Source: Corynebacterium ulcerans
GTDB taxonomy: Bacteria; Actinomycetota; Actinomycetes; Mycobacteriales; Mycobacteriaceae
Direction of reading: 5' to 3'
Assembly: GCF_900187135.1 (NCBI RefSeq)
Contig: NZ_LT906443.1
Location: 1,488,001-1,552,000, forward strand
DNA: 64,000 bases
A program made the position numbers and the translations under genes. This document shows positions 19,817-32,164 of this stretch, in pieces (position 1 is the first letter of the stretch; each line of letters opens with the position of its first letter). Under the pieces are notes generated by a model, which saw nothing but the letters and a program-made list of their open reading frames with translations, did not search any database and was not told the DNA's origin.

Positions 19817-20760
19817 GGAACTACCTCCGCATACGCGGAGAAAAGATGGGGCCGGTTCCCTCCACCGTGACTGATTCGGAACTACCTCCGCATACGCGGA
19901 GAAAAGCGTGGAATCCCACAACCGCTGAAGGTGCAGGTGGAACTACCTCCGCATACGCGGAGAAAAGTGCTGAGTCAAAGCTTCAAACGTCACAACACCG
20001 GAACTACCTCCGCATACGCGGAGAAAAGCGTGTCTGGCGCACCGATGGTGACGATGAGGCGGAACTACCTCCGCATACGCGGAGAAAAGATCTAGAAACA
20101 CTGATTGACCAGCTAATTACCGGAACTACCTCCGCATACGCGGAGAAAAGTCGGGGCTGAAGGTCCCCACGCGGGGGCCGAGGGAACTACCTCCGCATAC
20201 GCGGAGAAAAGTGGTGGACGGGGGCTACTGGCCAGACGATGATGGAACTACCTCCGCATACGCGGAGAAAAGCTCATCGGTATATCCCCACTCGTATTCG
20301 TCGAGGAACTACCTCCGCATACGCGGAGAAAAGGATCATCACCAACATGACCGACAGCGGCGACTGGAACTACCTCCGCATACGCGGAGAAAAGAAGCTC
20401 ATAAACGGTACGATCAGCGTATTCACGGAACTACCTCCGCATACGCGGAGAAAAGCGGCCATAGCCTCGCGCCATTCCTCCACCGGTGGAACTACCTCCG
20501 CATACGCGGAGAAAAGACTTTGCGCAGGATCAGCTGGACGGCAGTGCCGGAACTACCTCCGCATACGCGGAGAAAAGAATATCTTTGTGATTCGCCGGCG
20601 ACAACGGCAGGAACTACCTCCGCATACGCGGAGAAAAGACGTGTGGGGCGAAAAGAATCATCAGCTGGTGGGAACTACCTCCGCATACGCGGAGAAAAGG
20701 AGCAATTCCGCGCGGGCCTTAGCCCCTGAGCGGAACTACCTCCGCATACGCGGAGAAAAG
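19817..20760 (-). CRISPR. Type I-E CRISPR array, 16 repeats and 15 spacers
   Basis: Sixteen apparently identical 29-nt repeats start every 61 bp from 19817 to 20732, separated by fifteen 32-nt spacers. On the plus strand each repeat begins GGAACTACCTCCGC and ends GCGGAGAAAAG. Read on the minus strand it has the I-E layout of 5 nt, a 16-nt hairpin segment (CTCCGC/GCGGAG with a GTAT loop) and the 8-nt handle GTAGTTCC. crRNAs are therefore expected from the minus strand, the same direction as cas2. Only 18 nt separate the first repeat from the cas2 stop. No repeat is degenerate at either end. Spacers look GC-balanced and phage-like, but their targets cannot be identified here. Confidence 0.98.
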
Positions 20761-20778: not shown

Positions 20779-21150
20779 TTACTCACTCTCCGGGCAAAAA
20801 TCCTCCAAAACTTCGTCTGGAATAATTGCATCGGCTTCATCCAAGGGGTCAGCAAAACGCACGTCTTCTATTAGACCACGAGCAGAGAGGAAAAGGCCAT
20901 CAAAATCAACGACGGGGCGCCGTTGTTTTCCTGTTGTGCGGATTCTGAACCCTTGCTCAGCATCATATTGTGGGTGAATCAGAGTAAGAGATCCTGCTAG
21001 GTCTACGGATTGGCATTTTTCCCAAAGGTTTTCCATGACGGTTCTGGATAGAACTCCTACATAAAGACCTGCGTCTACTTCGGAAAGGAAGCGACTGAGG
21101 TAGCCGTTGAGGTGGTTCGGAAGGTTATGCCCTTGGATGACCGCAAACAT
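20779..21150 (-). CDS. cas2: CRISPR-associated endoribonuclease Cas2, type I-E
   Basis: A 123-residue Cas2e. The N-terminus HNLPNHLNGYLSRFLSEVDAG, followed by LYVGVLSRTVMENLWEKC, matches the Cas2e ferredoxin-fold core. With Cas1 it forms the spacer-integration complex. The ATG follows the cas1 stop with no gap. The C-terminal tail is acidic (DPLDEADAIIPDEVLEDF). It is the last protein gene of the minus-strand cas6e-cas3-cas1-cas2 unit, and its stop lies 18 nt from the array. Confidence 0.93.
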   Translation of the reverse strand: MFAVIQGHNLPNHLNGYLSRFLSEVDAGLYVGVLSRTVMENLWEKCQSVDLAGSLTLIHPQYDAEQGFRIRTTGKQRRPVVDFDGLFLSARGLIEDVRFADPLDEADAIIPDEVLEDFCPESE

Positions 21151-22104
21151 TTATTTACCACCATATTGTGTGTGCCCTGGGACTTCGTGGTTTCTTCCGC
21201 CGATGAGGCGGTCGTCGGTACGCTCGGGGAGATGTGGAGTGAGGATCTCCATCATAATGTGGATCATGTTTTTGAGGCGGTCCTGATTCACGATTTCGCT
21301 TCGCACGAGTCTTCTAAACTCGGAACCATCGTCGTCGTTATTAGCGCATTTGAAAGCAGCGGGGATTGTGAGTGTTGGTTTATAGAGGTCGGCGAGGTCA
21401 AAGAGGAGGGATCGGATATCTCCGCGGTGAATGATCCCTAGAGCTGGGTTAATTCCTAGCGCTGCGCATGCCGAGGCGGCACATCCGTAAAGGATGGAAT
21501 TTCCCAGGTTAAGGTTGGTGTTCACAGGATCAGTGGCGTTAGTATCGCGCTTAAAATTTTTGATCTTATGTTGAGCACTGAGCCTTTTGTATAGGTTTCT
21601 GATGGTCCGGCCTTCAATGCCACGCATAACTGCGATGGAGTCTGCTTCTATTTCTTCTATGCCTAGTTGTCGTTTGTATAGGATTCGGGCAGCTGTCCGT
21701 TGTTTGGCTTCATTTGATGCAAGACGTGCTTGCGCGATGGCCCATCGTGCAGAGGACGTAAGTGGGGTGGACAAACTATATGCTTGAACACCACCGCCAC
21801 CAGTAAATAAGACGGAGACACCTGCTCGCGCACAGGAGGTAGCGGCAGGCTGACTTATGCTAGTTCCTGGACCCAACATGAGCACCGCAAGCCCTCCTAC
21901 AGGAAGTTGGATCCGAGCTTTGATCGGGAGATCTTTCAACTCGGCAGGGGCTTTTTCGTCGCCACGGCTTACAGCGATAACCCCTGTTCTGTCTTGTCTG
22001 ATTAGGCAGTATTCGAGATACAGAAAAGATACTCTGTCTTCGAGCCTGATTTGTTCAGAAGCTGGGATAGTGGAAAAGGCGAGGGCTTCATTGGAATAAC
22101 TCAC
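21151..22104 (-). CDS. cas1: CRISPR-associated endonuclease/integrase Cas1, type I-E
   Basis: A 317-residue Cas1e, the catalytic subunit of spacer integration. The N-terminal beta domain runs from LEDRVSFLYLEYCLIRQDRTG to GVSVLFTGGGGVQAYS. The helical domain contains GIEGRTIRNLYKRLSAQH with the conserved Glu, LNLGNSILYGCAASACAALGINPALGIIHRGD (conserved His) and LFDLADLYKP (acidic metal ligands). The start overlaps the cas3 stop (ATGA). All expected metal-binding positions look intact. Confidence 0.96.
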   Translation of the reverse strand: MSYSNEALAFSTIPASEQIRLEDRVSFLYLEYCLIRQDRTGVIAVSRGDEKAPAELKDLPIKARIQLPVGGLAVLMLGPGTSISQPAATSCARAGVSVLFTGGGGVQAYSLSTPLTSSARWAIAQARLASNEAKQRTAARILYKRQLGIEEIEADSIAVMRGIEGRTIRNLYKRLSAQHKIKNFKRDTNATDPVNTNLNLGNSILYGCAASACAALGINPALGIIHRGDIRSLLFDLADLYKPTLTIPAAFKCANNDDDGSEFRRLVRSEIVNQDRLKNMIHIMMEILTPHLPERTDDRLIGGRNHEVPGHTQYGGK

Positions 22105-24794
22105 TTTTGTGGGCCTTTCAAACCGCTCTGGAGGTCATATTCGTCAGGCTGGATATGTACGGCTGAATAGCCGGAGAGCAGGGTTTTTGCCTCTGATAGC
22201 GGGATCTCCCTGCTGGTGATCGGGAGAAATTTCTTTGATTGGGGTATCGAGATAGACGCACGGAGTGCCCTACGGAGAGACTCTCTATCTTCAGCTGGAA
22301 TTGCTATAAGCTTTTCGACGCTATCTGTCCACGCGCCAGGAATCGTCCCCGTAGGATCGCAAAGAATCGCCGAGATGCTCGAACAATCGATGAGTCGAGT
22401 AGCGCTTTCTTCCAGATCGTTTGCAGAAGTGATCTGAAGAAAATCCTCTACTACGCAATCAGAGGCTAAAACCTGTCGTGGTTTCCCATGCTTTGCAAAA
22501 TCAATACGTGACGTACCTGCTTGGCGCTGTTTGGTGACCCAAGAGGCAACCTCGTTGAGATAATCATCGGCGAGAGTTTCGCGTTCTTCAGCAGAGCCAC
22601 AATCTTCCGGTAATGACACTTTTTGGAAGAGTTCTTGCAACCCAGGCGTAGTCGCATCAATGAAATCCTGAATATCAGCAGGGAACTCAATCCGGTCTCT
22701 TTGTTTGAGCCATGATTCCACCCTGTACAACTGCGAGCGTAGATAGGGGAGAGTCTGTCCTGTACTAGGTGAATCCACTACTGCAATGGTGAGCTTTTTC
22801 CCCACCATCCCTGGGACACGTACCTCCCTTTGTGGATCGAGACGTCGCCACAATCTTCCTGCGCGTTGAATAAGAGAGGGAGCCGGGCATAGCTCGGTTC
22901 GGAGCAGATCGAGGTCAATATCAAGAGATGCCTCGATTGCTTGTGTACCAATAACAAGGGTGGCGGTTGCTGTTCCTTTTTTGCCGATTGCTTGTTCTAA
23001 CTTTGTTGCTGCTTCTTTGCGATGCCCCGCGGTCATACGAGAATGCAAGACAATCGGTGACTCATGGGCTAGAGCTTCTGCAATGGATTGCGCGCGACCA
23101 ACCGTATTGCAGATAATGCCAATCCGTGCTTGTGGAAAAAGTTTCCTCTGCTTGATAGCCCACTGCACGTGAGAATCCACAATCTCATTGTGTGCAATTT
23201 TGTCTATGTGGATTGGGATGGTGAAAGCCTCAATGGGGATGTTTTCCTGGCTGGTTTCTGTGTTCTTACTAGGTGTCGACCAGCCTTCTAGAGAAGGAAA
23301 GACTCCCTTAAAGTGTGGTTCTTTTCCGGTGTAAGAGAGATGGAATTTTTCTCTTTGCCATGCAGGCATTGTTGCGGTGAGGAGGGTGACCGGAGTATCG
23401 GTAGCAGACCACCATTCTAAAAGACCAGACATAAGTTCTGACTGATACTGATCCATCGTATGAACTTCATCGACCACCACATGGGCGTTGGCGAGGGCTA
23501 ATAAACGGAGGTGGTTAAACTTTGACGGAAGGGCGCCCATCAATGCTTGGTCGATGGTTCCAACGCAGACAGGGGCTAGGAGCCGAGGTGTGCCAGCGGA
23601 GCGCACAAACTCTGTGGGGTAGAGTCCGCCGTTATCTTTGTAATTAGCGTCGTCTGAAGAACCTTGTACTGGGACGATGGGATGGGCATAAAAATCTTCG
23701 GTGACGGCGAGTCCGTGAGCAAGCGAAGCGACGTTAGGCGTGCCGTCGAAAATTTTCCCAATACGCTCCATGATCGCGTTGGTTGTGGCTTGCGTGGGGA
23801 GGAAGAATAACAGCCTTTCTTTACGTTTAACATGGCGCAATAAGGCGGTTTCCGTTTTTCCTGCTCCCGTAGTCTCCATGACGTTGAAGAGACCATCACC
23901 GGCGTTGAGTGCTGCTTTCTGTGTAAAGCGTGGTTCATAATCGCCAAGAACTGCGCGTATTCCAGCTGCTTCTGATTCCCAAGGGTGATATGTTCCCACC
24001 GTGTTTTCTATGATCTCGCGACAGAATGCCTTTCTGTTAGCGATCCACTTTTCCGGTTGGTGGAAAAATAGCTCTTCCTTTTGTAGCGCTTGCAGACCAT
24101 CAGATGCCATCTCTGATTGCGATGCGATTCGGTCCGCCAAAACTACTAAGCCACTGATCAGAATCGCAGAAGCTGGGCTAATGTGCTTAATCTCGGGCTG
24201 TTTTTCCAGTCCGACAGCTTGGAGCAAGGAAGACACCAAGAGCTCATGCGTTGGGCTCCAGCCGTTGTCGTCGAAGATATCCTCTATATCTTCTAAGTCA
24301 TCCTCATCGCTGAGGAACCCCGGAGCTGAAAAATTGCCGTGGTGTCCGATAATGGCAAGCTGGGGCCATACATCTTTGACTTGTAAGAACTTAGTGATTT
24401 CCCAGCCCAGAATGGAAAGCGTTATGTTCTCATGCCGACGTTTTTCTTTAGTTTCTTCAAAAAGAGCAGAGGTACCGTTGCTGAGAGGAAAACCTGCTTT
24501 TTGAATAGCGTCGCGCAGCGTTATCCATTCCTCTTTTTTATTTCTTCTTTGGGCCTGAAAGTAGGGATTAGCTTTTCCTAGATCATGGATTCCTGCCACA
24601 AAACCAAGGATTTTTTCCGCATCGGGCCCGAGTTCTGTAGAAAGTCGGTCCCGTAGTCCTTTCCGCAGCCAATGATTGAAAAGGCACGTGGCTGCGGTAG
24701 CGGTATCCAGAAGGTGTGCGAGAAGCGGATAAGGCTCCGACACATTATCAAACTTAGCCCACAAGACATGGTGGTTGGCGACTGCGTTGGTCAT
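22101..24794 (-). CDS. cas3: CRISPR-associated helicase/nuclease Cas3, type I-E
   Basis: An 897-residue single-chain Cas3. The N-terminal HD nuclease has His in LLAHLLDTATAA, the HD pair in GFVAGIHDLGKANPYF, and further His residues (RHENITLSILG, IIGHHG). The SF2 helicase part has Walker A METTGAGKTETALL, the DEVH box VVVDEVHTMDQY, motif III LLTATMP and motif VI QRAGRLWRR. Cas3 is recruited by Cascade and degrades target DNA. It lies between cas6e and cas1 on the minus strand. This places it with the adaptation genes and apart from the main Cascade genes. Confidence 0.97.
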   Translation of the reverse strand: MTNAVANHHVLWAKFDNVSEPYPLLAHLLDTATAATCLFNHWLRKGLRDRLSTELGPDAEKILGFVAGIHDLGKANPYFQAQRRNKKEEWITLRDAIQKAGFPLSNGTSALFEETKEKRRHENITLSILGWEITKFLQVKDVWPQLAIIGHHGNFSAPGFLSDEDDLEDIEDIFDDNGWSPTHELLVSSLLQAVGLEKQPEIKHISPASAILISGLVVLADRIASQSEMASDGLQALQKEELFFHQPEKWIANRKAFCREIIENTVGTYHPWESEAAGIRAVLGDYEPRFTQKAALNAGDGLFNVMETTGAGKTETALLRHVKRKERLLFFLPTQATTNAIMERIGKIFDGTPNVASLAHGLAVTEDFYAHPIVPVQGSSDDANYKDNGGLYPTEFVRSAGTPRLLAPVCVGTIDQALMGALPSKFNHLRLLALANAHVVVDEVHTMDQYQSELMSGLLEWWSATDTPVTLLTATMPAWQREKFHLSYTGKEPHFKGVFPSLEGWSTPSKNTETSQENIPIEAFTIPIHIDKIAHNEIVDSHVQWAIKQRKLFPQARIGIICNTVGRAQSIAEALAHESPIVLHSRMTAGHRKEAATKLEQAIGKKGTATATLVIGTQAIEASLDIDLDLLRTELCPAPSLIQRAGRLWRRLDPQREVRVPGMVGKKLTIAVVDSPSTGQTLPYLRSQLYRVESWLKQRDRIEFPADIQDFIDATTPGLQELFQKVSLPEDCGSAEERETLADDYLNEVASWVTKQRQAGTSRIDFAKHGKPRQVLASDCVVEDFLQITSANDLEESATRLIDCSSISAILCDPTGTIPGAWTDSVEKLIAIPAEDRESLRRALRASISIPQSKKFLPITSREIPLSEAKTLLSGYSAVHIQPDEYDLQSGLKGPQK

Positions 24795-24814: not shown

Positions 24815-25525
24815 CTATATCGGACGGAAAGTGAGCATCCCACAGCCATAAGACTTTGCACGACCTATGCCGTGAATGAGTATCTTTTGCAGTTCCGCCG
24901 GATCTTTTACATGGGCGAATCCATCAATCGTGTCCACCTGAACTGTTCTGTTACTAGTCTTCTCGCCGTTCCGGTTTGCCCCTAAGACCTGCCGGCCATG
25001 GCGAACGATGTCGATATTTTCTAAAGCGGGAGAGAGCTTTTCTTTCACCCACTGTCCGGCTGCCGTTTCAGTTGGGTCTGAGTCGAGTGCCTTTAATGAC
25101 AAACACGTGGTTTTTATTTTTCTCTTTGTGTTTTCTGTGGCGTCGATGGTTTTGCGCCGTACTGCGTTAATGGAGAGTCTGAACTCTATGGGAGTTCCGG
25201 CTTCTGGAGACACCAGGTCAACCTGGCGAATTTTAATATGGTTATCAAGATTGCGATTAGAAGGTTCAATTGACGACTGCACGAAAAAATATGGCTCTTG
25301 TCCTGGGAGAATCTCCAACCGGAAGAGGATATTGGAATCAGTTCGAGCGTTGTCCGATTGATGTTTCGGGAAAAGTGCCATGACCGCTCTGTGTCGGAAG
25401 ACTGGGTCGTCTACGTCCCAGCGAGGCTTGTTTTTTGAATCTTGTGCAGCGGAATCGCCCAAAACGAGTGATTTGTTGAGGGCGATATGTGCTGGGAAAT
25501 GCGTCCAATAAATAGTGTTTGGCAT
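24815..25525 (-). CDS. cas6e: CRISPR RNA endoribonuclease Cas6e (Cse3/CasE)
   Basis: A 236-residue Cas6e, which cleaves the repeat hairpin and stays bound to the crRNA 3' end. I choose the ATG at 25525 (MPNTIYWTHFPAHIALNKSL), because AAAGAGG lies 6-7 nt upstream. The frame is open further, but that would run into the mini-array. The C-terminal glycine-rich loop IGRAKSYGCGMLTF is the family signature. In most I-E loci cas6e follows cas5. Here it is on the opposite strand, heading a cas6e-cas3-cas1-cas2 unit divergent from cse1. Confidence 0.94.
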   Translation of the reverse strand: MPNTIYWTHFPAHIALNKSLVLGDSAAQDSKNKPRWDVDDPVFRHRAVMALFPKHQSDNARTDSNILFRLEILPGQEPYFFVQSSIEPSNRNLDNHIKIRQVDLVSPEAGTPIEFRLSINAVRRKTIDATENTKRKIKTTCLSLKALDSDPTETAAGQWVKEKLSPALENIDIVRHGRQVLGANRNGEKTSNRTVQVDTIDGFAHVKDPAELQKILIHGIGRAKSYGCGMLTFRPI

Positions 25526-25547
25526 GGTAGACCTCTTTCTGTATAGC
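25519..25547 (+). promoter_or_regulatory. Predicted sigma-A-like promoter for the CRISPR-resembling RNA
   Basis: TTGGCA (25519-25524) and TATAGC (25542-25547) are separated by exactly 17 nt. A start near 25554 would place the first degenerate repeat about 24 nt into the transcript. The -35 overlaps the cas6e start codon on the other strand. Confidence 0.5.
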
Positions 25548-25553
25548 ATCGAT

Positions 25554-25657
25554 GAGGGAAGAAGCGCCTTGGCCAATGATTCCTCGCGTTCTGCGGGGGT
25601 AGTTCCTGTTATATTTTCGGGTTTGGCTTTTCCTCGCGTTTTGCGGGGGTAGGGTGC
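25554..25657 (+). ncRNA. Candidate CreR-type CRISPR-resembling RNA (two degenerate repeats, 21-nt spacer)
   Basis: Two degenerate 29-nt repeats (25578-25606 and 25628-25656) flank a 21-nt spacer (25607-25627). The first keeps the 8-nt handle GTAGTTCC exactly, and a hairpin CCTCGC/GCGGGG in place of CTCCGC/GCGGAG. The second has the same hairpin (loop GTTTT) but its handle has decayed to GTAGGGTG, so only one guide RNA would be produced. The spacer begins TGTTATATTTTCGG. The cse1 promoter contains TGTTAAATTTTAGG at 25688-25701. Mismatches occur only at positions 6 and 12, the unread flipped-out positions of I-E crRNA. I infer a guide that recruits Cascade to repress its own operon. Confidence 0.75.
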
Positions 25658-25667
25658 TTCTTCTCTC

Positions 25668-25702
25668 TTGTTTCAACTTTATCAGACTGTTAAATTTTAG
25701 GT
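25668..25702 (+). promoter_or_regulatory. cse1-operon promoter overlapping the predicted CreR target site
   Basis: TTGTTT (25668-25673) and TAAATT (25691-25696) are spaced 17 nt. The partial protospacer 25688-25701 covers the whole -10. The three bases 5' of it are GAC; the PAM of this system is not known. A strong ribosome-binding site (GAAGGAAGGGG) precedes the cse1 ATG at 25741. Confidence 0.65.
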
Positions 25703-25740
25703 ATCAAGTTTTAAGAAATTAAAGTTGAAGGAAGGGGACC

Positions 25741-27354
25741 ATGAAAAGCAATGTTTTTAAAGACTTTCCATTCGTAAAAACTAATAAGGGACCCATGACT
25801 GTAGAAGAGTTTTTTCATTCCAGTCATGAAGAATCTCTCCATTTAGATCTTTCCATTCCTGGATATGAATATGGGGCGATTTGGCGATTACTTGCCTCAC
25901 TCACTGCGGTGATAGTGCAACGCGATCCTTCACTTCTAGAGGAGGTGGAAAGTGGCTCTGAACTGAGTCTTGATCCAGAATTTATATCTCAAATACTTGA
26001 TGATTTAGGATCAAAAATAAGTTTGACTGAGGGGAAAAATCTTTTTTTCCAACGCCCTCTTTTGGAGGGGGAAAACCCGAAGGATACCGCTCGGTATGTG
26101 GGACCGGGGAAAGATCCTGCTTGGAAATTATCGCCAACTGCCCCCAGTGAAAAATCCCAGATTTATTGGAACTTAGAGAAATTAAAGCCCGAATCCCTGG
26201 AAGCTGTAGACGCGATTGTTGCGTTGATGGTTTTCTCCATGTATTCGTTTACCGGAAACTCGAAATACGATGGCGCAAAGTGTCTCAACGGATCACCAGG
26301 TATCAGGTTCCTTGGCGGTGGAAACACGGCCACGGAATTCATCATTGAATCTAAAACGCCACTGCTATCTTTACTGAAGTCCATTCCACTGGAATGGTGC
26401 GAACCAGGCGGATTGCCTGCTTGGCTAGATCGAACAGGCGCTGAATCTCGAAAACCCAATGGGGAAATGCATCCTTTATGGCGTGCAACGTGGAGTTCTA
26501 ATACTGCAGCATGTTGTTGGGACGGAGAAACTCTAATCGGGGTGGGCATAGGCGGAATTCCTCCAGAATGGTATGCCCTTGAGATGGGAAGCAAGCCCGA
26601 GGCTAGGAAAGAATGGTGGGATCAAAGAAATACCGAGGATCCTTTCTACTTCTATCAACCTGATAAGGGCGGAGCTTTAAAAGCAAAGCGCCTTGATTTA
26701 AGCCGTGACCTCACAGAACTAGCTGTGGAGTGGGTTGCAGAAGACTTGTCCACCGCATTAGATGAGAGAGTGCGCGGTCGCGCATTAAGAGTCGATTTTA
26801 AAAAAGAAGACTCATTATTGTTTATCAGGCACCAGATAGGTGGCAATGCTTCCTCTGCGATGATCCGTGAGTCGGTGGTTTCTCAAGCTCGAAAGCAGCA
26901 GTGGGTCTTTGACCCCACCGGAGCTCTGCAGAAACAAGTGCGGGGCAAAGCAGACTTTATGCTCTCACTGAGAAATATCGTGTTGAGTCCGTTTAGACGA
27001 GAGAACAAGAGCGACCGCGATAGAGGGCGAAGAGTATTAGATAATCTGGCCAGCGAGCGGCCAAAGATGAACGAGACTTTTTGGCGGGAAATCGCACCGA
27101 TATACGAGGAATTCATCCTCTATTTCACAGAACAAGTGTCTGGAGATGAGACAAGGAAAGAAGTTCGCGCTCAAGCGAAAAAGACTCTCAAGGAATTGGA
27201 AAAAGACGCCGTTAGGACTGCTCAAAAAGCATTCGATATGGTCCTTGAACCCTATCTGCTACAGAATCCCAGCCAGGCCTATGAAGTGCGTCGACGCATC
27301 CATTCTTATTTGGCAAGCACGATTGCAGAGGCAAATGAAGGTGATCAGAAGTGA
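25741..27354 (+). CDS. cse1: Cascade large subunit Cse1 (CasA/Cas8e)
   Basis: A 537-residue Cas8e, the large subunit that recognises the PAM and recruits Cas3. The N-terminal domain runs from residue 1 to about 380 with family-like segments (SIPGYEYGAIWRLLASLTAV, LLEGENPKDTARYVGPGKDP, CLNGSPGIRFLGGGNTATEF). A four-helix bundle forms the C-terminus (about 390-537). It starts ATG after a strong ribosome-binding site. Its stop overlaps the GTG of cse2 (GTGA). First gene of the plus-strand Cascade operon. Its promoter is the predicted target of the mini-array RNA. Confidence 0.95.
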   Translation: MKSNVFKDFPFVKTNKGPMTVEEFFHSSHEESLHLDLSIPGYEYGAIWRLLASLTAVIVQRDPSLLEEVESGSELSLDPEFISQILDDLGSKISLTEGKNLFFQRPLLEGENPKDTARYVGPGKDPAWKLSPTAPSEKSQIYWNLEKLKPESLEAVDAIVALMVFSMYSFTGNSKYDGAKCLNGSPGIRFLGGGNTATEFIIESKTPLLSLLKSIPLEWCEPGGLPAWLDRTGAESRKPNGEMHPLWRATWSSNTAACCWDGETLIGVGIGGIPPEWYALEMGSKPEARKEWWDQRNTEDPFYFYQPDKGGALKAKRLDLSRDLTELAVEWVAEDLSTALDERVRGRALRVDFKKEDSLLFIRHQIGGNASSAMIRESVVSQARKQQWVFDPTGALQKQVRGKADFMLSLRNIVLSPFRRENKSDRDRGRRVLDNLASERPKMNETFWREIAPIYEEFILYFTEQVSGDETRKEVRAQAKKTLKELEKDAVRTAQKAFDMVLEPYLLQNPSQAYEVRRRIHSYLASTIAEANEGDQK

Positions 27355-27944
27355 CAACTAATAGACCTAAGCAACCATGGACGCCTTTGGTGGCCGAGTT
27401 TGCACAGAGAAAGAAGGATAAGGAGTTTCGAGCCAAGCGATCGGCACTTCGTGCCGGATCTGGAATCTATACGGAGTTCCGTGCTTACTCGTATGTTCTG
27501 CCGTTTCTAGGGGAAAAAGCCTCAGAAGCGCAAAGGACCGCTTTGCTGCGTTGCATGGCAGCGTTGGCTGAGTATCCGGATATTGTTTCCAGCGGTGAAA
27601 AAGCTACAGCTTCATCGGTAAGTCAATGGGTGAACCGTGTTGCCTTTGACGGTAAACAAGGGCAGTCAGAACCCGACTCTATGGTGGCGTCTCGAATCAA
27701 ATACCTGCATACGCAGGATCTGGAAGAAGCAATTTCTTCTTTGCGTCGCATTATGGCATTTGCCGATAGAAAAAACATGGCTATCAAGTTGAATCCCTAC
27801 CAATTTGTCGAGCTTTTCTGGTACTGGGGAAATGGGTTTACAGACGCGTCGACAAAGCATCGGCTCAGCGTCTTGCGCGATTTTTACAGCACCAAGCAAA
27901 AAGAAAACACTGATCCACAAAGCTCTTCCGAAGGAGAAAAGTAA
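27351..27944 (+). CDS. cse2: Cascade small subunit Cse2 (CasB/Cas11e)
   Basis: A 197-residue, all-helical, basic protein. It begins TTNRPKQPWTPLVAEFAQRK and includes RSALRAGSGIYTEFRAYSYV and LLRCMAALAEYP, characteristic of CasB. Two copies form the belly of Cascade and stabilise the R-loop. GTG start overlaps the cse1 stop; the stop overlaps the cas7e start (TAATG). Length is typical of the family. Confidence 0.94.
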   Translation: MTTNRPKQPWTPLVAEFAQRKKDKEFRAKRSALRAGSGIYTEFRAYSYVLPFLGEKASEAQRTALLRCMAALAEYPDIVSSGEKATASSVSQWVNRVAFDGKQGQSEPDSMVASRIKYLHTQDLEEAISSLRRIMAFADRKNMAIKLNPYQFVELFWYWGNGFTDASTKHRLSVLRDFYSTKQKENTDPQSSSEGEK

Positions 27945-29011
27945 TGTCTCGTCATCTCACTATTCATGTTGTTGCTTCTGTTCCTTACTCCAACCTCAAC
28001 CGTGACGATTCTGGTACACCGAAGAATGTTCGTCGAGGCGGAGTGACATGTGCACTATTAAGCTCCCAGTCCATTAAAAAGGGAATTCGCACTAAGTACG
28101 AGGATGCGTCTTTGGACACCTCGGTGCGTTCAGGTCGTATCGCGGACGATGTGCTTGAAAGGGCGAAAGTACTTGCTCCGGAGGCAGACACTAAAGCGCT
28201 AGAAAAAGCAGTGAAGAAGATCATTGGTACCTTGACAAAGGTTGCCGAGGCTAATGAATCTGAAGGTGAATCGGATCGTTCGATTTGGCTCAGCGCTGAG
28301 GAACTAGAAGCCGCCGCTGTGAGCGTGGTTGAACAAGCAGAGAAGAAAGACTTTATCGAGGACGGCCGGACAGGTTCGCTGGCTATCGCTGCCTTTGGCC
28401 GCATGTTCGCGGCTGCTCCGCAGAAGGGGACCGAGGCTGCTCTGAGCGTTTCACCTGCGGTAACTACCCACGGCGTGACGATTGCTACGGATTATTTCTC
28501 TACGGTCGATGATATTCGTGAACGAAACCGCGATACGGGAGCAACCTATCTTGGCGTGTCACAGTACACCACCGGTGTTTTCTATCGGACAGTGACAATT
28601 GATAAAGAACAATTGCGCGAAAGCTGGACTGGTTTGGATCGCGAAGACGCAAAAGAAAACCTTGCTGCGTTAGTAAACGCGATCATTTACGGACTTCCGC
28701 GCGGAAAACAACACTCAACGGCGCCTTTTGTCCAACCTGCTCTGATCTTGGCGGAAGAACAATCCTATCGCTGTGCTTATGATTTTGAGTCACCGGTACA
28801 AGCGGATACTCGTGAAGGCGGCTACCTCAAGCCGACCTTGGAAGAGCTGAAACGCCAGTATGACTCTGCCAGGGCTTTCGACGCAGATAACTTTGGGGAA
28901 ACCCAGGTAGTTTCCGGAACCTACCCTGAGGTATCTGAATTCTTTGCTGGTGCTAAGTATGCTGACAAGAATGGTTTTATCGACGAAGTTGTTGCCTGGA
29001 TTCAGCGTTAA
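27944..29011 (+). CDS. cas7e: Cascade backbone subunit Cas7e (Cse4/CasC)
   Basis: A 355-residue RAMP protein, six copies of which form the crRNA-bound backbone. The N-terminus carries the family signature HVVASVPYSNLNRDDSGTPK, then VRRGGVTCALLSSQSIKKGI. The thumb and glycine-rich parts (FGRMFAAAPQ, VTTHGVTIATDYFSTVDD) and C-terminal PFVQPALILAEEQSYRCAYDF are recognisable. ATG overlaps the cse2 stop. All of it appears intact. Confidence 0.96.
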   Translation: MSRHLTIHVVASVPYSNLNRDDSGTPKNVRRGGVTCALLSSQSIKKGIRTKYEDASLDTSVRSGRIADDVLERAKVLAPEADTKALEKAVKKIIGTLTKVAEANESEGESDRSIWLSAEELEAAAVSVVEQAEKKDFIEDGRTGSLAIAAFGRMFAAAPQKGTEAALSVSPAVTTHGVTIATDYFSTVDDIRERNRDTGATYLGVSQYTTGVFYRTVTIDKEQLRESWTGLDREDAKENLAALVNAIIYGLPRGKQHSTAPFVQPALILAEEQSYRCAYDFESPVQADTREGGYLKPTLEELKRQYDSARAFDADNFGETQVVSGTYPEVSEFFAGAKYADKNGFIDEVVAWIQR

Positions 29012-29022
29012 CTGGTGATCGT

Positions 29023-29715
29023 ATGACAACTACCTCGGTATATCTACGATTAGCTGGACCGTTGCAGTCATGGGCAGGGCCCGCTGTAACGGGAAACTTT
29101 GTACGAACGGGGCCGATCCCCACGCATTCTGCATTAGTTGGTCTCATCGCGGGTGCTTGTGGCTATCGACGTGACGAGTGGCCCGATTGGCTTAATCGTC
29201 TTAACTTTCGGGTTCGTGTGGATCATCCTGGAAAGTTCGTGGATGATTTTCAAACGGTGTCAGCCCATGAAGAGGAGATGCTGTTCCGTGAGCGTCTGAT
29301 CTTGGCGACGGGAAAACGACCCAGCGCTAAGACAACTCGTTTAACTCCTGATGGGCGCGGAATGACAAGTATTATCCAGCGGACCTACCTGGCAGAAGCT
29401 GAATTTATCGTTGAAGTCGCATCGGATACGCATGGTGAGCTACTGCGTGATGCGTTACGCGCGCCGAAGTTCAGCACCTATTTAGGACGTAAGGCTTTCG
29501 CGCCGGCGTTCCCGTTCTATTTAGGAGCTACTACGGACGTCGATGTGCTTCATCGCATCCCTGCGTGCGATCTTTCTGGCGCTAAACGCGATACTGCGCG
29601 TGTTCAGATCCATCACTGCAGCGCTGAGCTGCACACCTCGGCGGAGCATATTAACGTACCTGCGGTGCAAGAGCGCTCGGATTGGTTAGAAAAGACCAAA
29701 GTGCTGTTTGCATAA
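29023..29715 (+). CDS. cas5e: Cascade subunit Cas5e (CasD)
   Basis: A 230-residue RAMP protein that binds the 5' handle of the crRNA. It starts with SVYLRLAGPLQSWAGPAVTG and RTGPIPTHSALVGLIAGACG, the Cas5 N-terminal signature. FSTYLGRKAFAPAFPFYLGA is also diagnostic. It starts 11 nt after cas7e and ends the plus-strand operon. Cas6e, usually the next gene, is instead on the other strand at 24815-25525. Confidence 0.95.
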   Translation: MTTTSVYLRLAGPLQSWAGPAVTGNFVRTGPIPTHSALVGLIAGACGYRRDEWPDWLNRLNFRVRVDHPGKFVDDFQTVSAHEEEMLFRERLILATGKRPSAKTTRLTPDGRGMTSIIQRTYLAEAEFIVEVASDTHGELLRDALRAPKFSTYLGRKAFAPAFPFYLGATTDVDVLHRIPACDLSGAKRDTARVQIHHCSAELHTSAEHINVPAVQERSDWLEKTKVLFA

Positions 29716-29791: not shown

Positions 29792-30826
29792 TCATTCCCA
29801 GTGGTCGTGTTTGATAATGCGCTCGGGTATAAAAGGAGACTCAGTTTTACTATTCAGATACCACTCCACCATGCGTCGGGCATGTTCGTGGTTGATGCCG
29901 CGATGGGTGTGGAAGAGTTTTTTAATGTCCGCGCTGAGGTCGTCTCCCAGAAGCGAAGTTTGGCAGGGCAAAGCTGTATCACTGAGAGGAATAGCGGGTG
30001 CTGTGAACTGAAAGAAGAGCTCTTCTTTTTTGATCAAAGTCCTATACATTAAGCGGATCGACCGCAATTCTTTATATGTCCACTGCCAGCCACAACTGTT
30101 TTCATTGTGATTAGTGTTGGGAGAATCGGTGCGATGTTTCAGCAGTTCTTTCCAGGTAGTTTCCCACGTGTTATAGCGATCAAGCCACAGTTGTGCCTGC
30201 TCGGAGGTGTAAACGTAACTAAGGGAATCAGTCAGGTTTTTGATCTCTATCGCAGGCTGTGTATGAGATGTGTGTGAAATCTTCTGATTAACGCTTTCTT
30301 TGATACTGGATAAGCACCGGCGCATTGGTATCCCCGGCCATAGAGATTGAATCGCCTGAGCCGTGGATTCATCTCCACTGATAACCGCAGCACTTGGTCG
30401 CGGAAAATAGGTATATACCTGCACACAAGTGGTTTTATCGTCTTTGCTTACCCACTGCCATCCCAGTACATGAGTGCTGTTATAGGCCACGACGAGACAC
30501 CATGACTGAAAAAACGTGCCTTCATTCATCACTAAAATGCACGCTTTGTCTTCCATATACGGCTGTGGAACGGGAACTTGCCAGCACCACGACATTAAAC
30601 GGCGTTGGGTTCGTGAAACATCGCTTTTATCACGTGGTTTGCCCCCTAAGATCCACGATATAAACGCTTTCATCTGTCTTTGATGCAGCGTTCCGGACCG
30701 CGTTGCTGTCGACGACGCTCCGCATCCTGTACATCGGTACCGGGTTTTCCCTGCGGATGTCTTGCCGTTCTTTTTGACATCACTGCCGCATATATCGCAG
30801 TGATGTCCATATGGATGTGAGGCCAT
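29792..30826 (-). CDS. IS1249/IS256-like transposase-derived protein with apparently lost DDE triad
   Basis: An uninterrupted 344-aa frame resembling IS1249-type transposases. It has the N-terminal zinc ribbon CDICGSDVKKNGKTSAGKTR followed by YRCTGCG. The middle contains GWQWVSKDDK and the C-terminus ends HRGINHEHARRMVEWYL. Against the IS1249 pattern as I recall it, the first Asp (ADGT) reads NEGT and the second (CDGG) reads SGDES. The catalytic Glu region (ALEGGVNAQIR) reads LLGDDLSADIK. Thus no obvious DDE triad remains, although the frame is open. It may be decayed or domesticated. I could not delimit inverted repeats. It sits just downstream of cas5e. Confidence 0.7.
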   Translation of the reverse strand: MASHPYGHHCDICGSDVKKNGKTSAGKTRYRCTGCGASSTATRSGTLHQRQMKAFISWILGGKPRDKSDVSRTQRRLMSWCWQVPVPQPYMEDKACILVMNEGTFFQSWCLVVAYNSTHVLGWQWVSKDDKTTCVQVYTYFPRPSAAVISGDESTAQAIQSLWPGIPMRRCLSSIKESVNQKISHTSHTQPAIEIKNLTDSLSYVYTSEQAQLWLDRYNTWETTWKELLKHRTDSPNTNHNENSCGWQWTYKELRSIRLMYRTLIKKEELFFQFTAPAIPLSDTALPCQTSLLGDDLSADIKKLFHTHRGINHEHARRMVEWYLNSKTESPFIPERIIKHDHWE

Positions 30827-31240: not shown

Positions 31241-32164
31241 ATGAAGAAAAAAGTTGTTTTATTCTTATCTATAATTATGGGAATCTTACTTCCTGTAGGA
31301 AATGCGGTAGCAACGCCTGTTTCACATGACGCAGCTTCCACAGGAAACCGACCCGTTTATGCGATTGCTCACCGGGTCCTCACTACCCAAGGCGTAGACG
31401 ATGCAGTCGCAATTGGCGCGAATGCACTCGAAATTGACTTCACGGCATGGCGTGGGGGCTGGTGGGCGGACCATGATGGTATCCCCACCAGCGCGGGAGC
31501 TACCGCAGAGGCAATTTTTAAACATATCGCCGAAAAGCGGAAGCAGGGAGCAAATATCACTTTTACCTGGCTCGATATTAAGAATCCTGACTACTGCACA
31601 GACCCTGATAGCGTGTGTTCCATTAACGCGCTGCGCGACTTAGCACGCAAATACCTGGAACCGGCAGGTGTTCGAGTGCTGTATGGGTTCTATAAGACGG
31701 TTGGTGGACCAGGGTGGAAGACAATCACTTCTGACCTGCGCGATAAAGAGGCGGTAGCGCTCAGTGGTCCGACGCGCGACGTGCTGAATGATTTTGCAAA
31801 AGCGGGAGATAAGATCCTGACCAAACAAAAAATCGCCGACTATGGGTATTACGACATCAACCAAGGGTTTGGTAATTGCTACGGCGACGGAAACAAGACA
31901 TGTGATCAACTGCGTAAATCCAGTGAAGCTCGCGACCAAGGACAACTCGGTAAAACTTTTGGGTGGACAATCACTACAGGTCAGGATGATCGCGTCAATG
32001 ACCTCCTAGGGAAAGCCCACGTAGACGGAATGATCTTTGGTTTTAAAGTGACCCACTTCTATCGCCACGCAGACACTGAAAACTCTTTCAAGGCCATCAA
32101 GACGTGGGTAGATAAACACTCCGATACCCATCACTTGGCCACTGCCGCAGATAATCCGTGGTGA
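31241..32164 (+). CDS. pld: Phospholipase D / sphingomyelinase D exotoxin
   Basis: A 307-residue secreted exotoxin with a signal peptide ending GNAVA. It belongs to the GDPD-like sphingomyelinase D family shared with spider toxins. The catalytic histidines are in IAHRVLTTQ and WWADHDGIP. The Mg-binding acidic residues are in ALEIDFTAW and WLDIKNPDY. The enzyme acts on sphingomyelin and lysophospholipids of host membranes and is the main virulence factor of C. pseudotuberculosis and C. ulcerans. Several residues differ from the C. pseudotuberculosis sequence I recall. The neighbouring fag genes are encoded on the opposite strand. It lies at the edge of an accessory segment that includes CRISPR and transposase remnants. 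Confidence 0.97.

Follow-up and report, generated by a model that had tools for sequence, protein, structure and literature searches.

Between the divergently oriented cas6e and cse1 genes of Corynebacterium ulcerans lies a gap of 215 bp which contains two degenerate CRISPR repeats, a short spacer between them and a site upstream of cse1 that resembles this spacer. Why would a CRISPR-Cas locus keep such a mini-array next to the start of its own Cascade genes, apart from its main array? The comparisons described here provide strong evolutionary evidence that the unit encodes a crRNA-like guide, which would lead Cascade to the cse1 promoter. All coordinates refer to the window, the 64,000-nt stretch of contig NZ_LT906443.1 (positions 1,488,001 to 1,552,000) that was analysed.

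A divergent type I-E locus

The window carries a type I-E system: the minus strand encodes cas2, cas1, cas3 and cas6e, and the plus strand cse1, cse2, cas7 and cas5. The gene set was recognised through NCBIfam families, cse2 scoring below the cut-off and cse1 being identified through its relatives only:

19817..20760, minus strand: main CRISPR array, 16 repeats and 15 spacers of 32 nt
20779..22104, minus strand: cas2e and cas1e (TIGR01873, TIGR03638)
22101..24794, minus strand: cas3 (TIGR01587, TIGR01596)
24815..25525, minus strand: cas6e (NCBIfam TIGR01907, E 7e-17)
25741..27354, plus strand: cse1 (cas8e), divergent family, no NCBIfam match, recognised through relatives
27351..29715, plus strand: cse2, cas7 and cas5e (TIGR02548, below cut-off; TIGR01869; TIGR01868)

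The gap extends from the cas6e start at 25525 to cse1 at 25741. No match to Rfam was found in the window between 19500 and 26500. Directly after cas5 there is a transposase-like frame (29792-30826, named by eye). The frame at 31241-32164 resembles a phospholipase D known from the C. ulcerans / C. pseudotuberculosis group, and is followed by frames resembling ABC transporters.

The Cse1 protein of the window has no NCBIfam family, and the Pfam Cse1 model gave no match to it in its own genome. Since neither model recognises it, we regard this Cse1 as a divergent lineage. Proteins of its type occur in 12 of 242 Corynebacterium genomes, the window's own counted, and at 8 of these 12 loci cse1 is overlapped by a match to the Pfam model. 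The nearest relative found is that of C. silvaticum (95% identity); the aligned relatives, G149 and G014 lying outside that alignment, are 36-55% identical to the window's Cse1. The cas genes neighbouring the relatives were named by position, frame length and likeness rather than by family search. When the Cse1 of one relative (G083) was compared with an even sample of 401 genomes of the family, two matched, both from Corynebacterium and one of them the window's own. Searches with Cse1 in samples of the class and the phylum gave 3/394 and 3/396 matches, weak except for the window's own, and a search of viral contigs and plasmids gave none.

A divergent cas arrangement termed type I-E' has been described in C. 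striatum, and the window locus resembles it in the divergent layout of the operons and in a Cas set far from the usual I-E one (PMC9944170). The two probably belong to the same lineage, an assignment that reflects agreement in layout only. The abstract and section 11 of the account of type I-E' mention no regulatory mini-array (PMC9944170).

Anatomy of the mini-array

The following elements were delineated in and around the unit:

25578..25606, plus strand: degenerate repeat 1, 20/29 identical to the array repeat (minus-strand reading), with the handle GTAGTTCC at 25599-25606
25607..25627, plus strand: mini-array spacer (guide), ~20-21 nt, compared with 32 nt for array spacers
25628..25656, plus strand: degenerate repeat 2, 17/29 identical to the array repeat, stem kept, handle degenerate (GTAGGGTG from 25649)
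25599..25648, plus strand: predicted processed crRNA-like RNA of ~50 nt, from the Cas6e cut site and the repeat layout
25554..25667, plus strand: outer inverted repeat (25554-25571 with 25650-25667), possible terminator; 0/300 shuffles reach its score

Repeats and spacer lie where a preliminary description of this DNA had placed them. The handle and hairpin that it had claimed for repeat 1 are likewise present, the hairpin as a possible 6-bp stem in a shifted register, judged by eye.

A mini-array occupies the cas6e/cse1 gap in nine of the 12 loci with this Cse1, each with a spacer of its own, two of which are nearly alike. In all nine, repeat 1 carries the handle (GTANTTCN, or GTGTTTCG in G189) and repeat 2 has a stem but a degenerate handle. 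Measured from where the handle ends to where the repeat-2 stem ends, the unit spans 40-42 nt at every one of these loci, compared with 53 in normal arrays, and from this shorter distance the RNA is predicted to be about 50 nt long, with about 20 nt of spacer. Cas6e cuts before the 8-nt handle; given this cut, the predicted product falls short of the RNA of about 60 nt proposed at first. Repeat-spacer-repeat order, degenerate repeats, a position outside the array but within the cas locus, a handle retained by the first repeat and a Cas6 stem by the second are together the layout of the regulators of the CreR type.

The outer stem that encloses the mini-array is clear in three of the nine loci (0, 1 and 4 of 300 shuffles score as high), borderline in a fourth (9/300) and not significant in the remaining five, and we have therefore dropped it as a universal feature of the unit. 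At two loci (G083 and G240; L030 and L025), a part of the spacer could pair with the bases that directly follow repeat 2, a complementarity equalled in 1 and 0 of 300 shuffles; in G083 the two stretches are GGCTATTTG and CAAATAGCC. Such pairing could make a terminator around repeat 2 there, although it is not general.

An exact pattern for short two-repeat units, which misses more degenerate units, the window's included, had matches in 5 of the 242 genomes: the known units of G070, G133 and G240, a copy of an array spacer in G109 and a separate short array in G132. The G109 match (L150, C1 2346475-2346527) is a 20-nt array spacer whose first 21 nt recur in another spacer, of 32 nt, in the same array, and is probably a truncated copy. 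The G132 array (L022, C1, ~1860066-1860241, minus strand) has 4 repeats and 3 spacers of ~23 nt with a period of ~53 nt, and is followed by a strong hairpin with a T run; frames nearby look phage- or plasmid-like by eye. A search of 17.6 kb, in which up to one non-flip mismatch was allowed over the first 14 nt, gave no target for its spacers.

Guide and target upstream of cse1

The spacer was defined as the sequence following the handle, and at all nine loci it was compared with the part of the gap that lies downstream of it. In the window this points to the following sites:

25688..25701, plus strand: target (protospacer) upstream of cse1, mismatched to the spacer only at positions 6 and 12, unique in the genome
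25685..25687, plus strand: PAM-like GAC, a candidate; AC at -2,-1 in 9/9 loci
25680..25685, plus strand: -10-like TATCAG just upstream of the target, tentative; TA[AT] rule, 9/9 loci
25519..25547, plus strand: possible mini-array promoter, TTGGCA (25519-25524) and TATAGC (25542-25547) with 17-nt spacing, read from sequence only and unproven

The first 14 nt of the window spacer agree with the target at 12 of 14 positions, with the two mismatches that the preliminary description had noted, and the target starts 53 nt before the cse1 start codon. The same holds across the relatives: all nine spacers match the upstream region of their own cse1 at positions 1-14, with 0/108 mismatches outside positions 6 and 12. 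Counted over the nine loci, mismatches at positions 1-14 number 0, 0, 0, 0, 0, 6, 0, 0, 0, 0, 0, 6, 0 and 0, and at positions 15-21 they number 2, 5, 5, 5, 7, 9 and 9; the match stops after 14-17 nt. Positions 6 and 12 agree in three of nine loci each, near the 1-in-4 expected without constraint, and the chance that all 12 mismatches would fall on these two positions under random placement is ~1e-12. In the Cascade of E. coli, position 6 is flipped out (PMC5904413).

The pairing is specific to each locus. When spacers were swapped between loci, the best fits had 2-6 non-flip mismatches, the values of 2 coming solely from the pair G133/G189. First-order shuffles of the downstream gap equalled the observed 17-nt match in 0 to 30 of 20,000 trials per locus, the window being the weakest of the nine with 30. 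The flip-masked 14-mer preceded by AC occurs exactly once in the 2.45-Mb genome of the window, and the next best site is the mini-array itself, with one PAM mismatch. From spacer start to target start there are 72-81 nt in all nine loci.

The three bases before the target are GAC in four loci, TAC in three and AAC in two, which makes AC a putative PAM of this partly complementary site, as expected for a CreR-type regulator. At the corresponding place before the spacer, the mini-arrays have CC, CA or CG instead of AC, and for this reason the mini-array should not target itself. The PAM was also sought through the targets of ordinary spacers: three natural arrays gave no match to phages, and exact-pattern scans of viral contigs with five single array spacers gave no target, these being part of the 174 array spacers extracted.

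As for promoters, the TTGGCA/TATAGC pair that the preliminary description had placed before the mini-array is present, but scanning 25480-25780 for a sigma-70 consensus yielded 0 promoter-like sites on either strand. The same scan lists two plus-strand terminator-like sites, one of them at the end of repeat 2 (25636-25657), with a shuffled mean of 0.4. The preliminary description had the target cover the -10 of cse1, but a -10-like TA[AT] starts 8-10 nt upstream of the target in all nine loci, so that the target may not cover it. At other positions of the gap this motif occurs in 5-17% per locus, and, having been found after looking, it is a lead only. Should it be the -10, the -10/start region of cse1 may be covered by PAM and target.

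We consider it very probable that the gap encodes a guide of the CreR kind, and that Cascade carrying this guide represses its own operon while ordinary crRNAs compete for Cascade. It may be argued that the guided complex activates or merely fine-tunes cse1, or that it acts mainly on the divergent promoter of cas6e, whose transcript may well start in the same gap; the consensus scan, which saw no promoter on either strand, leaves some room for this. The TA[AT] motif at the nine targets, however, would put bound Cascade on the start region of cse1, and in type I-B Cascade guided by a short spacer represses (PMC10989794). Activation, fine-tuning or a main effect on cas6e therefore appears improbable to us.

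Co-variation and loss among relatives

The preliminary description had read the spacer as a guide leading Cascade to the cse1 promoter. This reading gains support from the relatives, in which spacer and promoter site vary together wherever the element is found. The clearest example is the pair G133 and G189, whose cse1 genes share 95.7% identity in the first 1500 nt that were compared. Two substitutions, at positions 7 and 10, separate their spacers, and each recurs with the same letters in the targets; at position 12 the target alone differs. This pattern is what pairing with a flipped base predicts. Being close relatives, the two are not fully independent in the locus counts.

We also scanned the 400 nt upstream of cse1 for matching pairs using neither handle nor PAM. 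This unanchored scan recovered a handle-led pair with AC before the target in 9 of the 12 divergent loci and, in the window and G070, the repeats of the mini-array themselves. Among the conventional I-E loci of the genus, a handle-led pair was found in 0/87 and any pair in two, one conventional genome (G204) having been left out where its contig ends. One of these two pairs (L084) has neither handle nor AC; the other (L113) is a GC-rich 40-bp tandem repeat in four registers, none handle-led and one with AC before the second copy. Two genomes, G083 and G118, carry both a conventional and a divergent type I-E cse1, and have the mini-array pair at the divergent one only. Just upstream of cse1 in several of 30 conventional I-E loci (L032, L036, L040, L058, L060 and L061) there is a hairpin-like stretch with a GGGCACC core, possibly another cse1 regulator.

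One clear exception exists among the related loci. In G109, long frames take the places of cas1, cas3, cas6e and cse1-cas5 and the arrays are large, but the gap has no recognisable mini-array, only a trace of a repeat seen by eye. A search of G109 for further exact copies of the promoter site that corresponds to the window's target gave none, so that an exact guide to this site is lacking there. In C. silvaticum (G149; L021/L016), a 2.09-kb deletion has removed the N-terminal half of cas3 and nearly all of cas6e. Within the stretch examined, a single repeat stands in place of the array; the gap has one repeat where the window has a further repeat-spacer unit of 50 bp, and the target site differs at position 2, in the seed. 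The loss of both cas6e and the spacer unit is consistent with a guide that needs Cas6e and Cascade, in a single natural case. In G150, a frame of a Cas6 family and one for Cas3 HD follow the cse1-cas5 frames on their downstream side and are not placed opposite cse1. There is an in-frame stop within cse1 of G014, and the cas3 frame of G132 looks split; some of the nine systems may be decaying.

Degenerate repeats, a collapsed copy in C. silvaticum and no recognisable copy in G109 could also suggest that the mini-array is the remnant of an ordinary, dying CRISPR array, with a match to the promoter that arose by chance or from a self-acquired spacer. Decay of this kind would hardly leave the unit at the same place in nine loci with spacers shortened to nearly equal length, nor nine spacers each of which, over its first 14 nt, departs from the promoter region of its own locus at no positions other than 6 and 12, nor the concerted changes of spacer and target in G133 and G189. 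We hold the remnant explanation to be very unlikely.

Equally slight are the chances of an addiction module like CreTA, in which the guide would repress a toxic RNA or peptide encoded in the gap. The layout of repeat and guide does resemble that of CreA, but the matched site lies upstream of cse1 in all nine loci and not at a toxin, and no separate gene is seen in the gap by sequence, where tiny toxic RNAs could escape inspection.

Finally, a direct repeat in a promoter gap is a common operator layout, yet we give almost no credence to the notion of a protein regulator that recognises the two similar stretches, with the CRISPR-like repeats marking only its evolutionary place of origin: the sequence varies between loci but the two copies keep matching each other, a crRNA handle always stands before one of them and AC before the other, and the mismatches follow the six-base phase of Cascade, the other five phases fitting only 1/9 loci each (the fully matched locus) and other periods at most 3/9, except period 3, which includes positions 6 and 12.

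How the guide may act

For the favoured reading, autorepression by Cascade, the following course of events may be proposed. The mini-array RNA would be transcribed rightward and cut by Cas6e at both degenerate stems, and Cascade would load the resulting guide with its spacer of ~20 nt. The loaded complex would recognise AC and, in the start region of the cse1 promoter, form base pairs at 12 of the first 14 positions, leaving positions 6 and 12 flipped out. Bound there, it would block transcription of cse1-cse2-cas7-cas5, and since the pairing is short, Cas3 would not be recruited. A negative feedback may result: with few array crRNAs, or with a surplus of Cascade, a larger share of Cascade would carry the regulatory guide and the operon would be turned down, whereas abundant array crRNAs would compete this guide away from Cascade. 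Sensing of crRNA abundance has been proposed for CreR (PMC12737573, PMC12948488).

Cleavage at the cse1 site is unlikely because the match ends after 14-17 nt. In E. coli, interference needs extensive pairing and binding needs only short seed matches (PMC5904413). When type I-E spacers are shortened by 6 or 12, degradation by Cas3 is slowed but persists (PMC7296934). For the I-B system of Haloarcula, repression with neither interference nor priming is described when spacers are no longer than 24 nt (PMC10989794). A 20-nt spacer, however, lowered expression there only to ~65% of the control, and longer spacers did far better (PMC10989794); by analogy, this counts against repression by the guide of ~20 nt considered here.

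Compared with a normal crRNA, each of the nine guides lacks 11-13 nt, roughly two units of six bases. With this in mind, one may speculate on a second, dedicated regulatory Cascade with two Cas7 fewer, which would bind the cse1 start site without locking the R-loop and without calling Cas3. We put this forward tentatively, as a possibility that might well turn out otherwise. If it holds, guide length and mismatch would separate regulation from immunity, and paired substitutions would keep guide and promoter matched.

Relation to known regulators and significance

CreR RNAs, that is cas-regulating RNAs or modulatory mini-CRISPRs (Liu et al. 2023, Cell Host Microbe, as covered in PMC13131331, PMC12948488 and PMC12737573), are crRNA-like guides with a partial match to a cas promoter, and by its sequence the unit described here resembles them. 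The preliminary description had ascribed such RNAs to type I systems other than this one; a review names types I-B, I-E and V-A (PMC13131331). Regulators of the CreR kind are thus already known, and the window adds a further type I-E case, with comparative support that is unusually strong. Shmakov et al. 2023 (NAR 51:8150) reportedly described regulatory mini-arrays in which two repeat-like sequences flank a spacer partly complementary to cas8 promoters, and the window's unit shares the two repeat-like sequences and the spacer partly complementary to a cas promoter. Among the matches listed in literature searches, which did not extend to the text of Liu et al. and Shmakov et al., we found no report of this mini-array in Corynebacterium.

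In CreA, the guide of CreTA in Haloarcula (type I-B), the first repeat retains the Cas5-binding handle and the second has lost it (PMC9458426), and guides of this type repress transcription through a short seed match (PMC9458426, PMC10989794). The window's unit is similar in having a handle in repeat 1 only and a stem in repeat 2 (PMC9458426); it differs in that it belongs to a bacterial type I-E system and in that its target is the Cascade operon, not a toxin. Another comparison is offered by the repeat units called Racr. These are not known to have a promoter-matching spacer. Like these solitary repeat units of phages, the mini-array is predicted to give a crRNA-like product processed by Cas6, whereas it consists of two repeats and a spacer inside a cas locus on a 2.45-Mb contig, and Racr are solitary viral repeats (PMC10651486).

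A 2025 review states that there are no experimental data on the function of novel corynebacterial configurations (PMC12231136). For this divergent I-E lineage, all comparative support coming from one genus, our analysis makes two predictions, AC as the PAM and a shortened regulatory crRNA. The nine natural pairs of guide and target show which bases matter, and their freedom at positions 6 and 12 is the pairing rule of Cascade read from evolution. Together they provide clear evidence, by comparison between loci, of a type I-E system that is guided to the promoter region of its own genes.
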